Of a DNA stretch of 64,000 nucleotides, positions 15,238 to 20,858 are shown piece by piece. The stretch covers positions 186,001-250,000 of the forward strand of contig CP076020.1 of the NCBI GenBank assembly GCA_018622675.1, written 5' to 3'. Source of the DNA: Mycoplasmatota bacterium. GTDB lineage: Bacteria; Bacillota_I; Bacilli_A; Izemoplasmatales; Hujiaoplasmataceae. A program made the position numbers and the translations under genes. Positions within the stretch are counted from its first letter, which is position 1, and every line of letters begins with the position of its first letter. Below the pieces are notes generated by a model. That model worked only from the letters and a program-made list of their open reading frames with translations. It had not been told where the DNA came from and did no database searches.

Positions 15238-15358
15238 TTGAGTGAATCATGTATAATATTTCCTCGAATTATCAAATTTAAGAATCTTTTGTGTGAAAGT
15301 AAGCAAAGATAATAAAATAAGTTTAGGTGATTAAGTTTTTGTAAAAGAGAGGATGAAT

Positions 15359-15817
15359 ATGTTTAAAAAGATGAGAAGAATGGATAAAGCATTATCCAAG
15401 AAAGAAACACTTGAACTACTAGATAAAGCTGGAGTAGGTATCTTAGGAACAATGTCTGACAATGGATATCCTTATACAATTGCCCTTAACTACGTATATT
15501 ACCAAAACAAGGTTTATTTTCATTGTGCTAAAGAAGGGCATAAAATTAATAATATCAAAGCTTATGAAAAAGTATCATTCACTGTTTGTGAAGACGTTGA
15601 GATTGTAGGTCAAGAACTAAATACAAAATATAAATCTTTAATCCTGTTTGGCAAAGCTAAAGTGATAAAGCCGAGTCATGAAATCTTATGGGAGTTAATA
15701 AAGAAGTATTCTACAATAGATTTTGAACAAGCCAATAAAATGATAGATAAAGAAATAAATGATACAGCCATTGTTGAGATAACAATTGATCATATTACAG
15801 GCAAAAGAGGGCGTTAG
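15359..15817 (+). CDS. Pyridoxamine 5'-phosphate oxidase-like flavoprotein (NimA-like)
   Basis: A 152-residue split-barrel flavoprotein of the PNPOx-like group. The core strands GVGILGTMSDNGYPYTIALNYVYYQNKVYFHCAKEGHKINNIK are the usual FMN-binding pattern, with a conserved HCAKEGHK. These proteins bind FMN or F420 and reduce small substrates; nitroimidazole reductase-like members are common in Firmicutes. The substrate is not deducible. The ATG at 15359 is chosen because AGAGAGG at 15347-15352 is well spaced for it and abuts the alternative ATG at 15353. Confidence 0.85.
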   Translation: MFKKMRRMDKALSKKETLELLDKAGVGILGTMSDNGYPYTIALNYVYYQNKVYFHCAKEGHKINNIKAYEKVSFTVCEDVEIVGQELNTKYKSLILFGKAKVIKPSHEILWELIKKYSTIDFEQANKMIDKEINDTAIVEITIDHITGKRGR

Positions 15818-15870: not shown

Positions 15871-15899
15871 TTGATTTTTTAAAATGATTGTGGTATTCT
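15871..15899 (+). promoter_or_regulatory. Putative promoter of riboswitch 1 transcript
   Basis: TTGATT (15871-15876), a 17-base spacer and TATTCT (15894-15899) lie about 44 bases before the aptamer. Confidence 0.45.
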
Positions 15900-15942
15900 T
15901 TAGGTGTCAAATCCATTTTGTAGTTTAACTATGAATGTGGAT

Positions 15943-16024
15943 GAATGACAAAGCTAAACCCGGAGCGATCCGGCGACAGAAAACTATAGGGTCTCAGTAT
16001 TACTGAGATAGCCAGTTGCCTTTC
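15943..16024 (+). ncRNA. Cyclic-di-GMP-I (GEMM-I) riboswitch 1
   Basis: It has the GEMM-I core in order. AAGCTAAACC leads into a stem CCGGA closed by the GNRA tetraloop GCGA and TCCGG. The segment GACAGAAAACTATAGGGTCT corresponds to the conserved GACGCAAAGC..GGGUCU receptor region. A 7-bp hairpin TCTCAGT/ACTGAGA and the strongly conserved TAGCCAGTTGCC 3' end follow. The G expected to contact c-di-GMP (before CTAAACC) is retained. The departure from ACGCAAA to ACAGAAA makes it a divergent member. It ends 25 bases before the ATG of the exported protein gene at 16050. I see no terminator between, so the output mechanism is unclear. Confidence 0.8.
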
Positions 16025-16049
16025 AAAAACATTTATAGGAGAAAAGACT

Positions 16050-16550
16050 ATGAAAAAGCTATTATTTAGCTTGGTTTTGATGTTTTTTGTATTTATAGGT
16101 ACAGTTCGTGTTTACGGATTTTATCAAGATACAAAAGTCACTCAATTAACTGAAGTCAAAACTCACCAATTATTAACCCAAAACCTTATGACTGATAATG
16201 ATAAAAACTTGGTGCCAAAAGGATCTATTTTAGGTGTTAATGATACTGAAGAATTTGTCTTCGAATACCAAGTATTTGTACAAAAAGATTTAGAAATTGA
16301 ATATACAGTGAATGATATTAGAATTAACCAAGAAGAAGTTAATGAAGATATAAGCAATCTTTTTAATTTTGATTTTGAATATGAACTTATTAAAGAAGAT
16401 TCTATTCAAACTCAATTATTGACTGCTAGTCAAGAAGGGTATTTTGTTAAAATAACCTTAACTGTGTCAATGAGTGAACCAACTTATCAACAATATCAAT
16501 TAATTGCTAATCAAGCGATGAATTTCGATGTTTTATTTAGTGTGAATTAA
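16050..16550 (+). CDS. Exported protein with SipW-cluster context
   Basis: A 166-residue protein. It has an N-terminal signal sequence (residues ~1-24: MKKLLFSLVLMFFVFIG, then VRVYGFYQ), followed by an all-beta-looking mature region of about 140 residues rich in Glu, Asn and Gln. The signal end GFYQ resembles the FAYW end of SipW-type signals. The mature part shares a pattern with the next gene's product (…NLVPKGSILGVNDTEEFVFEYQVFV versus …SLVPSGYAMQVNDVEFITLSYRIGV), so the two are paralogues. RBS AGGAGA lies nine bases upstream of the ATG. Control by the riboswitch just upstream is expected. Probably a TasA/CalY-like extracellular structural protein (inference). Confidence 0.7.
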   Translation: MKKLLFSLVLMFFVFIGTVRVYGFYQDTKVTQLTEVKTHQLLTQNLMTDNDKNLVPKGSILGVNDTEEFVFEYQVFVQKDLEIEYTVNDIRINQEEVNEDISNLFNFDFEYELIKEDSIQTQLLTASQEGYFVKITLTVSMSEPTYQQYQLIANQAMNFDVLFSVN

Positions 16551-16631
16551 TTTTTCCCCCTAATATATAATACACAGTAAATTAGAATATACTTATTTTA
16601 TCATATTATTTCTATGCATCAGTCTTTTTGA

Positions 16632-16660
16632 TTGACATTGAAAGCATAATATGGTAAAAT
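16632..16660 (+). promoter_or_regulatory. Promoter of riboswitch 2 transcript
   Basis: A consensus -35 TTGACA (16632-16637) and a -10 TAAAAT (16655-16660) have a 17-base spacer. It gives a transcript entering the second aptamer about 35 bases later. Confidence 0.7.
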
Positions 16661-16702
16661 TTGTATGCTTTATGAGAGAACTACTAGAAATTTTATAAAA
16701 AT

Positions 16703-16777
16703 TAATGTTAAAGGCACTCTTAGAGAAATCTAAGTTCGCAAAACTATAGGACCTGAAATGGTAGCCAGTTGTCATTA
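16703..16777 (+). ncRNA. Cyclic-di-GMP-I (GEMM-I) riboswitch 2
   Basis: It shows all GEMM-I landmarks. P1 is TAATG (16703-16707) with CATTA (16773-16777). GGCACT enters a 6-bp hairpin CTTAGA-GAAA-TCTAAG with a GNRA loop. Next come the tetraloop-receptor segment TTCGCAAAACTATAGGACCT and GGTAGCCAGTTGTC. The guanine that distinguishes c-di-GMP from cAMP-GMP aptamers appears present. Its 3' strand is shared with the terminator at 16763-16822, giving a transcriptional switch. It controls the genes from 16869. Confidence 0.87.
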
Positions 16778-16822
16778 GATGTATGTGATTATATACATTT
16801 TTAAGACACTGGCTTTTTTTTA
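16763..16822 (+). terminator. Riboswitch-controlled terminator (expression platform)
   Basis: AGCCAGTTGTC (16763-16773), the 3' strand of the aptamer, can instead pair with GACACTGGCT (16805-16814), leaving one bulge, and is followed by at least seven T residues. Aptamer folding and terminator are therefore mutually exclusive. Ligand binding should prevent termination, so the switch is predicted to be ON with c-di-GMP. Confidence 0.8.
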
Positions 16823-16868
16823 TAAACTTTCTTACAGTAAAATAGTTTTCTCAATCAGAAGGAGAGTG

Positions 16869-17453
16869 ATGCCGGTGTTAAATAATAATAAAATAAGATT
16901 GGCTTTAGCCGCCTTCTTATTTATAGGTTTTATCTTCACAACAACATCAGCTTTCTCATACTGGCAAGAAGTTACTTTGTCTAATGACATAGAAGTGATT
17001 AATATAGGTGAACCTGTAGAAATAGTTGTGACTGACTTAAATTCTTCACCTGAACAAGTATCTTTAGTACCAAGTGGATACGCTATGCAAGTCAATGATG
17101 TTGAATTTATTACACTCAGTTATCGTATTGGTGTTTCAAAAGAATTACTTAATACTGTGAACTTAATCATTACAAAAGATAATGTTTTAATTAATAACCA
17201 GGACACTTATTCACATTTAATTGATATAGATATAATGAATATGGGCGAAATCGCTACAGTAGATCTATTCAATGATTCTATTGTTATCACTGTTGTCATT
17301 AGATTAATTGAACCTATTGATTCAGAAGAAGCACTTGAGTTAGGTTTAGATGAAGATCGCGTCAATGTAGAAGACTCAGTCGCTGCATATAATGCAATCA
17401 TTGGTCAAAATGTTAGTTTTCAATTACTATTTGAATTGAAAAACAAAGAGTAA
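16869..17453 (+). CDS. SipW-type exported structural protein
   Basis: A 194-residue protein. The signal sequence (residues ~9-32) ends in TSAFSYWQE, close to the FAYW motif of SipW-processed TasA/CalY-type proteins. The mature region is beta-rich and acidic and is a paralogue of the product at 16050. AGGAGAG directly precedes ATG 16869; the alternative upstream ATG at 16779 lies inside the terminator hairpin and is rejected. It is the first gene after riboswitch 2 and is co-transcribed with 17502 and 18134 up to the terminator at 18453. A role in a c-di-GMP-induced extracellular fibre or matrix is inference. Confidence 0.78.
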   Translation: MPVLNNNKIRLALAAFLFIGFIFTTTSAFSYWQEVTLSNDIEVINIGEPVEIVVTDLNSSPEQVSLVPSGYAMQVNDVEFITLSYRIGVSKELLNTVNLIITKDNVLINNQDTYSHLIDIDIMNMGEIATVDLFNDSIVITVVIRLIEPIDSEEALELGLDEDRVNVEDSVAAYNAIIGQNVSFQLLFELKNKE

Positions 17454-17501
17454 TTTAAATAAAAAAAATAAAAATATAAGAAATATAAGGAGAGTTTTAA
17501 A

Positions 17502-18086
17502 ATGAAATCAAAAAAATTAGTTATTGGATTATTGCTATTATTAGCAGTCGTATTTACAACAGGAACATTTGCATATTGGGCAAGTGGAGTTAATGGACCA
17601 ACAACAGATGGAACAACAACAGGAACAGTAAATATTGGTCAAGGTGAAGCTGTTGAAACATCTTTTGTATTAACAGGAAGTCCTGCTACAGGTGGAAACT
17701 TGGTGCCTGCAAATCAACTTTCTAATAGCCCTGCGGGGTCTGTTGATGAAGTCAATGTTACATATGGTGTACAATGGACTGAAGATGGAACCACATCACA
17801 ACTTGCCGGAACTACAAGCACTGCTCCAATTACAATTACTTGGGTAATTACTGCAGACAATAGCGGAAATGATGTATCAACTTTAGCAAATACTTTAATT
17901 ACTGTTACACCAAATGTAGGAAATTTAGCAAGTTTAACTTTAGATGCTGCTCCCGAAAATTTTTCATTTGCTGTTACAATGACTGAACCAGCAGATCAAG
18001 ATGAATATAATGATATTTCAGGAGCAACAATTACTATTACATTTACTTATAGTTTAGGATCAATAACTACTACAGATAACAATTAA
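17502..18086 (+). CDS. SipW-type exported protein, probable major matrix/fibre subunit
   Basis: A 194-residue protein. Its signal sequence ends TFAYWASG (residues ~21-28), the textbook SipW-dependent signal end. The mature chain is unlike its neighbours in composition: rich in Thr, Gly, Ala, Ser and Pro, with few charged residues, Cys-free, and predicted all-beta. The low-complexity, Thr-rich sequence and the strong ribosome-binding site (AAGGAG, 17489 region) suit an abundant structural protein of the TasA/camelysin type. I see no direct sequence match to TasA that proves homology. It lies in the riboswitch-2 transcript. Confidence 0.78.
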   Translation: MKSKKLVIGLLLLLAVVFTTGTFAYWASGVNGPTTDGTTTGTVNIGQGEAVETSFVLTGSPATGGNLVPANQLSNSPAGSVDEVNVTYGVQWTEDGTTSQLAGTTSTAPITITWVITADNSGNDVSTLANTLITVTPNVGNLASLTLDAAPENFSFAVTMTEPADQDEYNDISGATITITFTYSLGSITTTDNN

Positions 18087-18133
18087 TTAGTAATAACTTA
18101 AATAGGTTTTGCTAATACAAAAGAGGTGATGCC

Positions 18134-18445
18134 ATGAAGAAAAAAGGTAAGATATTAAGAATTGCTATTTTAGCATTCATGGTTATTTCTTTATCATTAA
18201 CAACCAGTCATACTTTAGCCTATTGGGCAGAACCCATCATTGTTACTGAATCTATTGAATCTTCAGAAACTATTACTGCCGGAGATTGGGAACAAGCTTT
18301 TCCCTATGATTCAAACTATAATGATTATGAAGCTGGCGATTTAGTCACTTATAATGGTAGGACCTATAGAGCTTTAAGTGGACTTGCTAATAGTCTTACG
18401 CCCGGATCTGGATGGTTTTGGTGGCTAGGTTGGTCAAGATTATAA
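18134..18445 (+). CDS. Tiny secreted carbohydrate-binding protein (SipW-type signal plus CBM5/12)
   Basis: A 103-residue protein. A signal sequence ending TLAYWAEP (residues ~28-33) is followed by a ~20-residue linker and then a complete CBM5/12-like chitin/carbohydrate-binding module (residues ~52-103). The diagnostic aromatic pattern is W…Y…GDLVTYNGRTYRAL…PGSGWFWW. There is no catalytic domain. It may tether the extracellular structure to a glycan surface such as chitin or another cell's envelope. It is the last gene before the terminator at 18453, in the riboswitch-2 operon. RBS GAGGTG precedes the ATG. Confidence 0.83.
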   Translation: MKKKGKILRIAILAFMVISLSLTTSHTLAYWAEPIIVTESIESSETITAGDWEQAFPYDSNYNDYEAGDLVTYNGRTYRALSGLANSLTPGSGWFWWLGWSRL

Positions 18446-18452
18446 TGTTTAT

Positions 18453-18486
18453 AAAACGCAAAAAGAAAGCTTTTTGCGTTTTTTTA
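18453..18486 (+). terminator. Terminator of the riboswitch-2 operon
   Basis: A 13-bp stem AAAACGCAAAAAG (18453-18465)/CTTTTTGCGTTTT (18470-18482) runs into a T tract. Confidence 0.88.
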
Positions 18487-18494
18487 ATCCATTA

Positions 18495-18522
18495 TTACTA
18501 TTCTTAGGAATTATGATATAAT
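18495..18522 (+). promoter_or_regulatory. Putative promoter of the signal-peptidase operon
   Basis: TTACTA (18495-18500), a 16-base spacer and TATAAT (18517-18522) lie 38 bases before the sipW start codon. Confidence 0.5.
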
Positions 18523-18559
18523 ATGAATTAGATTGTATAATAATTGAAGAGGTAAAAAA

Positions 18560-19141
18560 ATGAGTGAAAACAAAAATAAAAAAATTTATAGTTTAATCAA
18601 GATGATTCTTTTTTATGTGCTAGTCTTTTTCTTAAGTATGTTTGTTATTTTTGAGGTGTTTATGCCTAAACAAACTGTTAAGGTGTTTGGCTTCAAACCA
18701 TACAATGTCATCACTCAAAGTATGGAGCCAGTATTGAAAGTGAATGATTTAATTATTGTTAAGAATTTTGATGTTGAAGATTTAGAAGAAGAGGATATCA
18801 TTACTTTTTATGCTGATATAGATTATAATGGAGAAAAAGAAATTGTCACTCATTACATTTATTCAATTGATATGAATGATTCAGATGAATATATCATAAG
18901 AACTAATCGACACTTTGATGAAGACAATAATATAGTTCCTGATACTTGGATACTAAATGAAGATGATGTTTTAGGTTTATATAGTTTTAAGATTCCTTAT
19001 TTAGGATATGTCACTGAATTCTTTAAAAGTCCTTTTGGTATTGCTGCGATAGTTGTAAATGCAGGTATTATAGCCGCAATTGTGATTTTAATCAAAAGAG
19101 AAAAGAAAATGAAGATGAAAGAAGATGAACAAATAGAATAA
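18560..19141 (+). CDS. sipW: SipW-type (ER-like) signal peptidase I, copy 1
   Basis: A 193-residue protein with an N-terminal transmembrane segment (~14-35), an extracytoplasmic S26B domain and a C-terminal transmembrane segment (~152-177). The catalytic Ser54 lies in ITQSMEPVL. The general base is His98 in VTHYIYS, as in SipW, archaeal and ER signal peptidases, and not the Lys of the bacterial P-type. SipW enzymes process a small set of matrix proteins such as TasA, matching the FAYW-type signal proteins just upstream. It is the first of three paralogous genes in a row. Confidence 0.9.
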   Translation: MSENKNKKIYSLIKMILFYVLVFFLSMFVIFEVFMPKQTVKVFGFKPYNVITQSMEPVLKVNDLIIVKNFDVEDLEEEDIITFYADIDYNGEKEIVTHYIYSIDMNDSDEYIIRTNRHFDEDNNIVPDTWILNEDDVLGLYSFKIPYLGYVTEFFKSPFGIAAIVVNAGIIAAIVILIKREKKMKMKEDEQIE

Positions 19142-19160
19142 TTAACTTTAGGAGTCTTTT

Positions 19161-19787
19161 ATGAAAAAAGTTTTTAAAAAGACATTAGATAGCATGAAAA
19201 GATTTATTTTGTTTTGTTATCATTATTTTAAAAAACATTATGTGAAAATAGGCTTTTATTTTTTAGCATTTATTTTGTTTATAAATGCTATTTTTATGAC
19301 AGTCTATCTGATTAATCGCAACTATGATTATAAAATTGTAGATACATTATATATAGAAGCTATTTTACCTAATCAAGATATAAATAGCACTTTAAAAACA
19401 GGAATTGTAAAAATCAAAAAAATAGATTACGACCGTATTTCTACGGATGATCAAGTTGTTATGTGTTGTGCTTATGGATTAGATGAATTTTGGGTTCAAG
19501 ATGTTGTTAGTGTAAATAAAGATGATAAAGTGATACAAACATCTTATGATGATTTTACATTTACATTAGTAAACGAAGATGATGCTTATGGTGTTTATAT
19601 AGAAGAAGCTAATATTTTTGTCACAATGTATTATACATCATCATTTATTAGAGGATATGCTTTATGGATGGTATCTGAAATTTTATTTATTTATATATAT
19701 CACTTTGTTTTTATACAAAAAAGATTAAAAGGTGTTTTGAAAAAAAATACACCAATAGAAAGTGCTGAAGAAGATGAAAATATTTAA
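19161..19787 (+). CDS. Apparent catalytically dead SipW paralogue
   Basis: A 208-residue membrane protein with helices at ~30-52 and ~160-185 and an extracytoplasmic region. Its spacing and motifs track the flanking peptidases. NQDINSTLKTGIVKIKK aligns with TQSMEPVLKVNDLIIVKN, ISTDDQVVM with LEEEDIITF, WVQDVVSV with IVTHYIYS, and LVNEDDAYGVY with LNEDDVLGLY. In this alignment the catalytic Ser becomes Asp73 and the His becomes Asp114, so peptidase activity is not expected. It may be a substrate-binding or regulatory subunit (inference). It overlaps the next gene by 14 bases. The alignment was made by eye and the similarity is weak outside these blocks. Confidence 0.6.
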   Translation: MKKVFKKTLDSMKRFILFCYHYFKKHYVKIGFYFLAFILFINAIFMTVYLINRNYDYKIVDTLYIEAILPNQDINSTLKTGIVKIKKIDYDRISTDDQVVMCCAYGLDEFWVQDVVSVNKDDKVIQTSYDDFTFTLVNEDDAYGVYIEEANIFVTMYYTSSFIRGYALWMVSEILFIYIYHFVFIQKRLKGVLKKNTPIESAEEDENI

Positions 19788-20319
19788 AAAAACCTTACAT
19801 ATCCTTTTTTATGGGCTTATATTAATGATTGTTTATTATTTGGCTTTACAATTTTTAATGCCAGATAAAACCATTGATTATATTGGTTTCAAAACCTTTG
19901 TTGTATTAACACCTAGTATGGAACCAAAAATCAATGTCAATGATATGATTGTTGTTAAGAAAGCAAAACAAGAGGATATTGAAGTCGGAGATATTATTAC
20001 ATTTGAAGTGTATATCCAAAATTTAGGTCAAGAGGCTTATGTTACCCATTATGTTGGTGACATTGACGACACCGGTGATGATGCCATTTATTATACACAT
20101 GGTGAAAATGCACCTGAAGGTGTTTATGACAAATGGGTGGATCAAGATAATCAAGACATTAATATTACATATGATGATATAGCGGGAGAGTATCTTTTTA
20201 AAATACCTAATTTAGGCTTTGTTTCTAGGTTGTTACAAGATCCTTATATGTTAGCTTTTATTGTATTTGATGTAGTGATTATTTATGCCTTAGTTAAAGT
20301 CATCAGAAAAAAAGATTAA
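19774..20319 (+). CDS. sipW: SipW-type (ER-like) signal peptidase I, copy 2
   Basis: A 181-residue protein with N-terminal (~8-28) and C-terminal (~152-175) membrane helices. Ser48 lies in LTPSMEPKI and His92 in VTHYVGD, forming the SipW/ER-type Ser-His dyad. The ATG at 19774 is chosen (AGAAG ahead); it overlaps the preceding gene by 14 bases, implying translational coupling. Two active SipW enzymes for one cluster suggest a split client range, perhaps including the distant protein at 55719. A terminator follows at 20332. Confidence 0.88.
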   Translation: MKIFKKTLHILFYGLILMIVYYLALQFLMPDKTIDYIGFKTFVVLTPSMEPKINVNDMIVVKKAKQEDIEVGDIITFEVYIQNLGQEAYVTHYVGDIDDTGDDAIYYTHGENAPEGVYDKWVDQDNQDINITYDDIAGEYLFKIPNLGFVSRLLQDPYMLAFIVFDVVIIYALVKVIRKKD

Positions 20320-20360: not shown

Positions 20361-20450
20361 CTTTAGTGATTGCAAAAGCTCGCAAAGAGTATTATTATAT
20401 AAATAGTGTATGATAAGCTTAAATTTGTTTATGGAAAGGACAAGATTTAC

Positions 20451-20858
20451 ATGGCTATTTTGGAAAAAGTAAAGAAATTAACAAAAAATATTTTTACAAG
20501 CAATGATCAAGATGTTGATTCATTAAATCTTATTTCAGTGGAAAACATGGAGACTAAGTATCGTCAAGAAGATTACATGGGTGCCGCAAAAGATTTAAAG
20601 CTTTTACTTGAGAGATACGGAAGAAGAAAAAGGAAGAATCACCGTTATAAAGGAAGAGAGTTTATATATTTTATACTAAGTAATAAACATAAAGACCTTA
20701 AGAATACGGGTTATACGCACTGGGAAAATATTGAAAAATTTATCAAACTAAACCAAAATAAAGTATATGAGTACCATAGAAAAAATTTAAGAAATGCAAT
20801 GGATTTCTTTGAAAAAGAAGTGAAGAGTATTAATGAAATTAAAATTCAAACAAAATAA
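20451..20858 (+). CDS. Hypothetical small basic protein
   Basis: A 135-residue, largely helical, Lys/Arg/Asn-rich protein with no signal or membrane segment. A central basic patch RYGRRKRKNHRYKGRE (about residues 58-73) is notable and could bind nucleic acid, but no family is recognised. The ATG at 20451 has AAAGG ten bases upstream; an earlier in-frame start at 20406 has none. It sits alone between two terminators, separating the matrix cluster from the glycerol regulon. Confidence 0.6.
   Translation: MAILEKVKKLTKNIFTSNDQDVDSLNLISVENMETKYRQEDYMGAAKDLKLLLERYGRRKRKNHRYKGREFIYFILSNKHKDLKNTGYTHWENIEKFIKLNQNKVYEYHRKNLRNAMDFFEKEVKSINEIKIQTK

Follow-up and report, generated by a model that had tools for sequence, protein, structure and literature searches.

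Do wall-less bacteria build an extracellular fibre on the signal of cyclic di-GMP (c-di-GMP), with SipW-type signal peptidases to mature its subunits? The question is raised by a locus at 15,871-20,319 of a 64,000-nucleotide stretch of DNA (the window), which covers positions 186,001-250,000 of the genome of a Mycoplasmatota bacterium (GenBank GCA_018622675.1, CP076020.1), a single contig of 1,648,168 bp. The locus holds two riboswitch candidates (RS1 and RS2), four genes for exported proteins (A-D) and three SipW-related genes (E-G), all on the forward strand. We favour, with a probability of roughly 0.6, the reading that it encodes a c-di-GMP-induced, SipW-matured, TasA-like fibre or coat of the wall-less Izemoplasmatales and Acholeplasmataceae. 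Genome-wide statements below come from profile searches of this genome.

One element of this reading is a response to c-di-GMP. A preliminary description of the window, made from the letters alone, had placed a GEMM-I aptamer before each of the genes A and B, and both were recovered with the RF01051 covariance model (gathering score 35): RS1 at 15943..16023 with 54.8 bits (E 5.9e-8), also seen in the alignment, and RS2 at 16703..16776 with 52.7 bits (E 1.9e-7). The genome contains six RF01051 sites, and the 14 control genomes contain none. The selectivity position (G20 of Vc2, Rfam position 11) is G in both aptamers, and the conserved 3' CC positions, which include the ligand-pairing C, read CC in RS1 and UC in RS2. 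By sequence, RS1 and RS2 are c-di-GMP-I riboswitches, predicted to bind this ligand. Fifteen of the 16 GGDEF matches in the genome lie over the cut-off and eight EAL matches were found, so the cell is plausibly able both to make and to degrade c-di-GMP; the canonical Asp of the GHxxGDxxL motif is kept in all eight GGDEF domains recovered with the strict motif.

A further question is in which direction the two switches would act. RS2 is preceded by a promoter-like TTGACA-17-TAAAAT with a TG extension (16632..16660), which was the top of 40 promoter-like sites in a consensus scan (34 expected) with 11/12 matches, and is followed by a terminator (16763..16821; fold and arm duplex) that uses the 3' strand of the aptamer itself. 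Its left arm, AGCCAGTTGTC at 16763-16773, pairs with GACACTGGCT at 16805-16814, and a T-tract follows; the fold has z = -4.8, and the arm duplex of -16.7 kcal/mol was matched by none of 200 shuffles (frequency 0.0). This overlap is kept in relatives, in which a change at the 3' end of the aptamer is accompanied by one in the terminator arm (as with GTTACCATA and TATGGTGACTGGC in locus L107), and 47 of the 95 distinct aptamers collected passed a strict test for a shared arm, with the overlap also present in most aptamers of the family that carry A at the selectivity position (A20). Since aptamer and terminator need the same strand and exclude each other, the ligand should favour transcription, which makes RS2 a predicted transcriptional ON switch. 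The same layout occurs in the pilM switch, which was studied experimentally and is ON (PMC9262584). Neither RS1 nor the corresponding aptamers of the A homologues showed a terminator arm. The ATG of A follows RS1 at a distance of 26 nt, and for these two reasons RS1 probably controls translation; a search for pairing of the aptamer strand with the start of A revealed no clear conserved structure, in an inspection that included no covariation test.

Do the switches then govern the peptidases or only their substrates? The unit B-C-D is closed by an intrinsic terminator (18452..18485; hairpin of -13.9 kcal/mol, then a T-run), and comparison of the D-E gap revealed an extended -10 element, TATGATATAAT (18512..18522), upstream of E. 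A similar terminator after D was found in L104, L105, L106 and L137, being clear in some relatives and not in all, and a -10 of the TATAAT type was seen in the D-E gap of 14/15 loci. The terminator and the conserved -10 together suggest that the SipW genes are probably off the riboswitch transcript, and the locus is probably arranged as three units: RS1-A, RS2-B-C-D up to the terminator, and the separately promoted E-F-G. The single c-di-GMP-switched SipW locus described previously therefore holds in that RS2 heads B-C-D, but the SipW genes are set apart from it; c-di-GMP would control the substrates and not the processing enzymes.

The three genes of the SipW type proved to be of two kinds. 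E (18560..19141) and G (19762..20319) exceed the cut-off of 51.85 bits for TIGR02228 (sigpep_I_arch) with 78.0 and 63.7 bits, respectively, and both carry the Ser and His, S54 and H98 in E, that are invariant among E and G homologues. To the Bacillus SipW equivalog NF046067, E scores 75 bits, below the cut-off of 190, which G likewise does not reach. F (19161..19787), a membrane protein conserved within the locus, is homologous to SipW (hhalign 96.9%, E 1.6e-10), but its family alignment lacks both the catalytic Ser and the His, so only E and G count as enzyme-like.

The predicted substrates are four small exported proteins. A (16050..16550) is an exported beta-domain protein of 166 aa, defined by its open reading frame (ORF), an alignment of homologues and an hhalign comparison with B; B (16869..17453) has 194 aa, a SipW-type FSYW leader and a beta domain (alignment, AlphaFold 2 model and Foldseek); C (17502..18086), also exported and of 194 aa, is Thr-rich with an FAYW leader (alignment, and matches of its homologues to TIGR04088 and TIGR04090); and D (18134..18445), of 103 aa, combines an LAYW leader with one CBM5/12 domain (PF02839 and TIGR04088). 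In all four leaders a hydrophobic stretch is followed by GFY, SYW or AYW. The four exported proteins and the kinship of A and B had been recognized beforehand; in profile comparisons, B matched A with 97.9% (hhalign, E 3e-13) and C with 99.0% (E 5e-18). Judged by these profiles, A, B and C are paralogues with a common beta domain, and no Pfam or NCBIfam family was found for any of the three in the window. D lies just under the cut-off of CBM_5_12 (PF02839; E 1.4e-5, 25.4 bits, cut-off 26.2) and near that of the SipW-type leader model TIGR04088 (E 0.0022), while homologues in the D slot reach 83.8-91.6 bits for PF02839 with up to six CBM_5_12 domains, as in Peloplasma, which has six.

What might such proteins form? 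Sequence searches of PDB with the profiles of B and C gave nothing significant. The AlphaFold model of B (pLDDT 85) was compared by Foldseek, in which the pilus subunit CfaB came first, the TasA fibre 8aur fourth, and PapG, FimG and FimA further down; the match to 8aur is weak (prob 0.99, TM 0.40/0.34, E 3.5e-3). We regard this resemblance of the modelled B to donor-strand fibre subunits as a lead, not a proof. Residues 32-46 of B, just after the leader, are of low confidence and predicted to be unstructured in the model; in TasA, the donor strand sits in the segment after the leader (PMC9674648). Among the 27 C homologues, five match TIGR04088 and two match the BsaA biofilm-matrix family TIGR04090 at E <= 0.1, the best of the latter at E 1.2e-4 without reaching the cut-off, and no protein of this genome, C of the window included, matches TIGR04090. 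C is a candidate for the major fibre subunit.

The arrangement is also conserved in relatives. When genome contigs were scanned with the SipW alignment, 45 loci emerged, mostly from Tenericutes, Izemoplasma, Acholeplasma and Peloplasma. Synteny of the locus extends over the chromosomes of many genera, and it is kept across two orders, in Izemoplasmatales and in Acholeplasmataceae, with the B-G unit present in Peloplasma aerotolerans; the order aptamer-B-C-D-SipW-F-SipW recurs, and some slots vary. Wherever 100 bp or more of sequence 5' of the gene was available (24/24), an aptamer lies 44-133 nt 5' of the B homologue, and all ten A homologues have an aptamer of their own just 5' of the start, even in the five cases in which A is inverted at the far end of the locus; in L108, the aptamer lies inside a 5' extension of the A homologue ORF. 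Within the family, RF01051 was found in 32/34 genomes and SipW in 33/34. Each of the five SipW genes in the present genome has an RF01051 site within the 10 kb 5' of it, and elsewhere in the class, in families less closely related, the same holds for 11 of the 32 SipW matches listed, counted against a same-strand aptamer, where a simple estimate gives ~ 0.17 expected. The SipW-aptamer association is not due to chance, and the gene-order comparison proposed earlier bears it out across two orders.

The host also has to be considered. The genome falls within the genus of Hujiaoplasma nucleasis, order Izemoplasmatales, and strain zrk29 of this species lacks a cell wall as judged by thin-section electron microscopy (PMC10470597). 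The penicillin-binding transpeptidase PF00905 was not found in the genome, while 10 of the 14 control genomes were positive; at an estimated completeness of 94.7%, this absence counts as supporting evidence only and is in line with a wall-less cell.

How could these parts work together? We infer a course that runs from ligand binding and an ON direction in vivo to fibre formation, with roles for A, B, D and F and a function on a wall-less cell. The cell's own diguanylate cyclases would raise c-di-GMP; RS2 would bind it, keep the 3' strand of the aptamer and block the overlapping terminator, allowing B-C-D to be transcribed, and RS1 would gate A separately, probably at translation and in the same 'make' direction. 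The SipW-type leaders, with AYW or GFY after the h-region, would be cut by the separately transcribed E and G, perhaps in partnership with F. Once mature, the beta-sandwich proteins, chiefly C, would polymerise by donor-strand exchange, as TasA and the chaperone-usher pilins do, to give a fibre or coat in which A and B may be minor, tip or nucleator subunits and which the CBM5/12 domain of D would anchor to glycans.

Several observations weigh against this picture. The Pfam family of TasA and CalY, Peptidase_M73 (PF12389), is matched neither by A, B and C, nor by the homologues of B and C, nor by any other protein of the genome. The Foldseek matches of B are weak (best E 1.1e-3, TM ~ 0.4) and below significance, and the model of C (pLDDT 76) has no pilin or TasA among its top 50 matches. 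Of the two conserved C positions on the 3' side, the first is U in aptamers of the RS2 type, a change that may make ligand binding weaker, and RS1 is without a clear expression platform. Finally, where cultured relatives have been described in print, neither biofilm nor fibres are reported for them. From the preliminary claim of a glycan-bound fibre or sheath made on a c-di-GMP signal with a dedicated processing machine, we retain the aptamers, the SipW genes, the glycan-binding protein and the structural matches to fibre subunits, whereas membership of the Pfam TasA/CalY family finds no support and the fibre itself is a deduction; on the related point of whether the mature proteins resemble TasA/CalY or enzymes, the best-ranked structural matches to B are with fibre subunits and not with enzymes.

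Such a balance leaves room for other explanations. The small exported proteins might not polymerise at all, A-D instead being separate adhesins under c-di-GMP control, secreted by way of SipW and tethered to the membrane or released, that bind glycans for attachment or nutrient capture. The CBM5/12 chains of D and its homologues fit this well, as do the four different small exported proteins of each locus and another RS1-type aptamer of the genome, which stands 5' of a 5,939-aa ORF; that A, B and C have a common beta domain whose nearest solved structures are fibre subunits, and that BsaA-family matches occur among the C homologues, speaks against it, and we hold this explanation to be rather unlikely. 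The riboswitches could also be OFF switches, with the coat made at low c-di-GMP; OFF is the direction of every functional class-I switch in C. difficile (PMC6366702). The sharing of one strand by the RS2 terminator and the aptamer is the opposite of the Cd1 OFF arrangement, and the same-strand design recurs in most A20-type aptamers of the family, which makes this direction improbable.

It is very improbable that the products are filaments in the style of archaeal type IV pilins, with the hydrophobic leader retained to form the filament core and SipW serving other substrates. The leader is strongly conserved, and the best sub-threshold PDB match of B, over the leader, is 6nav_A (E 0.81), which we take to be an archaeal pilus entry; this match is not significant, most complete loci carry two SipW peptidases, and neither a pilus ATPase nor a prepilin peptidase was seen adjoining the locus. 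The TasA-like fibre or coat remains the reading that we prefer.

Is the locus part of a wider regulon? The remaining four aptamers of the genome precede further surface loci. Two of these loci combine proteins with AWF leaders, SipW and an AAA ATPase, one of them with a DUF2357 protein in addition; in these SipW loci of a second type, the ATPase is of the AAA_5 family with membrane segments (L015, 5840-7477; L016, 7952-11148), and the DUF2357 protein of L016 forms a McrBC-like pair with it inside a secretion locus. In a further locus (L017, 1278000-1294500 of the genome), an A20 aptamer is followed by an AWF-leader protein, a protein of 2,465 aa (~ 2,500 aa across this type of locus) and two GGDEF-EAL proteins. 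The same-strand order was also found in L167, L168 and L169 with AWF or SWF leaders, four genomes in all, the EAL domains of the pair being confirmed in the present genome only; if the aptamer governs c-di-GMP phosphodiesterases here, a feedback loop would result. In L166, an RS1-type aptamer at 970820 and a leader similar to that of gene A precede the 5,939-aa ORF, which has a dockerin-like C-terminus and two seemingly identical stretches ~ 1,950 bp apart. The flanks of the SipW locus in the window hold a pyridoxamine-oxidase-like gene (15353-15817; 124.7 bits for the NimABCDEF nitroimidazole reductase model, cut-off 260) and, 3' of the SipW operon, a 150-aa ORF (20406-20858) with no Pfam or NCBIfam match.

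The aptamers vary at the selectivity base. The equivalent of Vc2 G20 is A in 33/95 and C in 3/95 aptamers, and two A20 aptamers belong to this genome; the base found here influences selection among cyclic dinucleotides without acting as a hard filter (PMC9262584). Double or triple tandem aptamers stand directly 5' of B homologues in L085, L086, L087, L088, L095/L140 and L099, some of them combining A20 with G20 or C20. As a source of a second ligand, synthesis of cyclic GMP-AMP (cGAMP) was considered and rejected: the Hypr Ser was not seen in the eight strict-motif GGDEF domains, all of which have the canonical Asp, the remaining GGDEF matches lying outside this check. On sequence grounds, a cGAMP signal in this genome has no positive evidence. 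The more than 90 related aptamers with variants of the selectivity base form a natural set.

In walled Firmicutes, SipW/TasA fibres are a known feature and protein regulators control them; known targets of c-di-GMP riboswitches include flagella, pili and adhesins. The tapA-sipW-tasA operon of B. subtilis resembles the window locus in that a peptidase of the SipW type is encoded next to exported beta-sandwich proteins whose leaders are of the same type, and the TasA fibre ranks high among the structural matches to B. In Bacillus, control lies with SinR (PMC9674648), whereas the window locus has c-di-GMP-I aptamers, no Pfam-level similarity to TasA, a CBM5/12 partner, two SipW proteins plus a SipW-like one without Ser and His, and a wall-less host lineage. 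BsaA of C. perfringens is likewise a SipW-dependent filament protein that polymerises without sortase (PMC7395162), and two C homologues match its family; unlike the window locus, sipW-bsaA is regulated by a two-component system, with a riboswitch unmentioned (PMC7395162), and C of the window has no TIGR04090 match. Transcriptional ON control over a surface protein is found in the c-di-GMP-I switch of B. thuringiensis Bc2-cap and the related cGAMP switch pilM (PMC9262584, PMC6366702), the latter with the terminator-aptamer overlap seen in RS2 (PMC9262584); the differences are the SipW/TasA-like target, the two independent aptamers and the recurrence at several loci within a single genome. In open-licence full texts, no description of such a locus was found, either for SipW with a c-di-GMP riboswitch or for c-di-GMP in Izemoplasma or Acholeplasma, which agrees with the earlier impression that no such composition had been described and does not prove absence; in the genome papers published on cultured relatives, c-di-GMP goes unmentioned, as does any biofilm formed by these organisms themselves. 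What seems new here is a putative SipW/TasA-like matrix system joined to direct riboswitch control by c-di-GMP in wall-less bacteria.

SipW/TasA-like genes and c-di-GMP riboswitches are thus joined across two orders of wall-less bacteria, and the combination recurs at several loci within one genome. A more far-reaching proposal, which we put forward tentatively and consider doubtful, is that in free-living wall-less bacteria a fibre coat replaces the cell wall and sortase-anchored proteins under a genome-wide riboswitch programme, in which the choice of fibre genes would be set by different cyclic dinucleotides or thresholds, read by G20, A20 and C20 aptamers that in part stand in tandem. Cultured species suited to testing are Hujiaoplasma nucleasis, of the same genus, and Peloplasma aerotolerans, which carries the B-G unit. 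The locus suggests that c-di-GMP directs an elaborate lifestyle programme in free-living mollicutes and that these cells have an extracellular matrix, and if the fibre is made when c-di-GMP is sensed, this would amount to a 'settle down' programme for wall-less cells.

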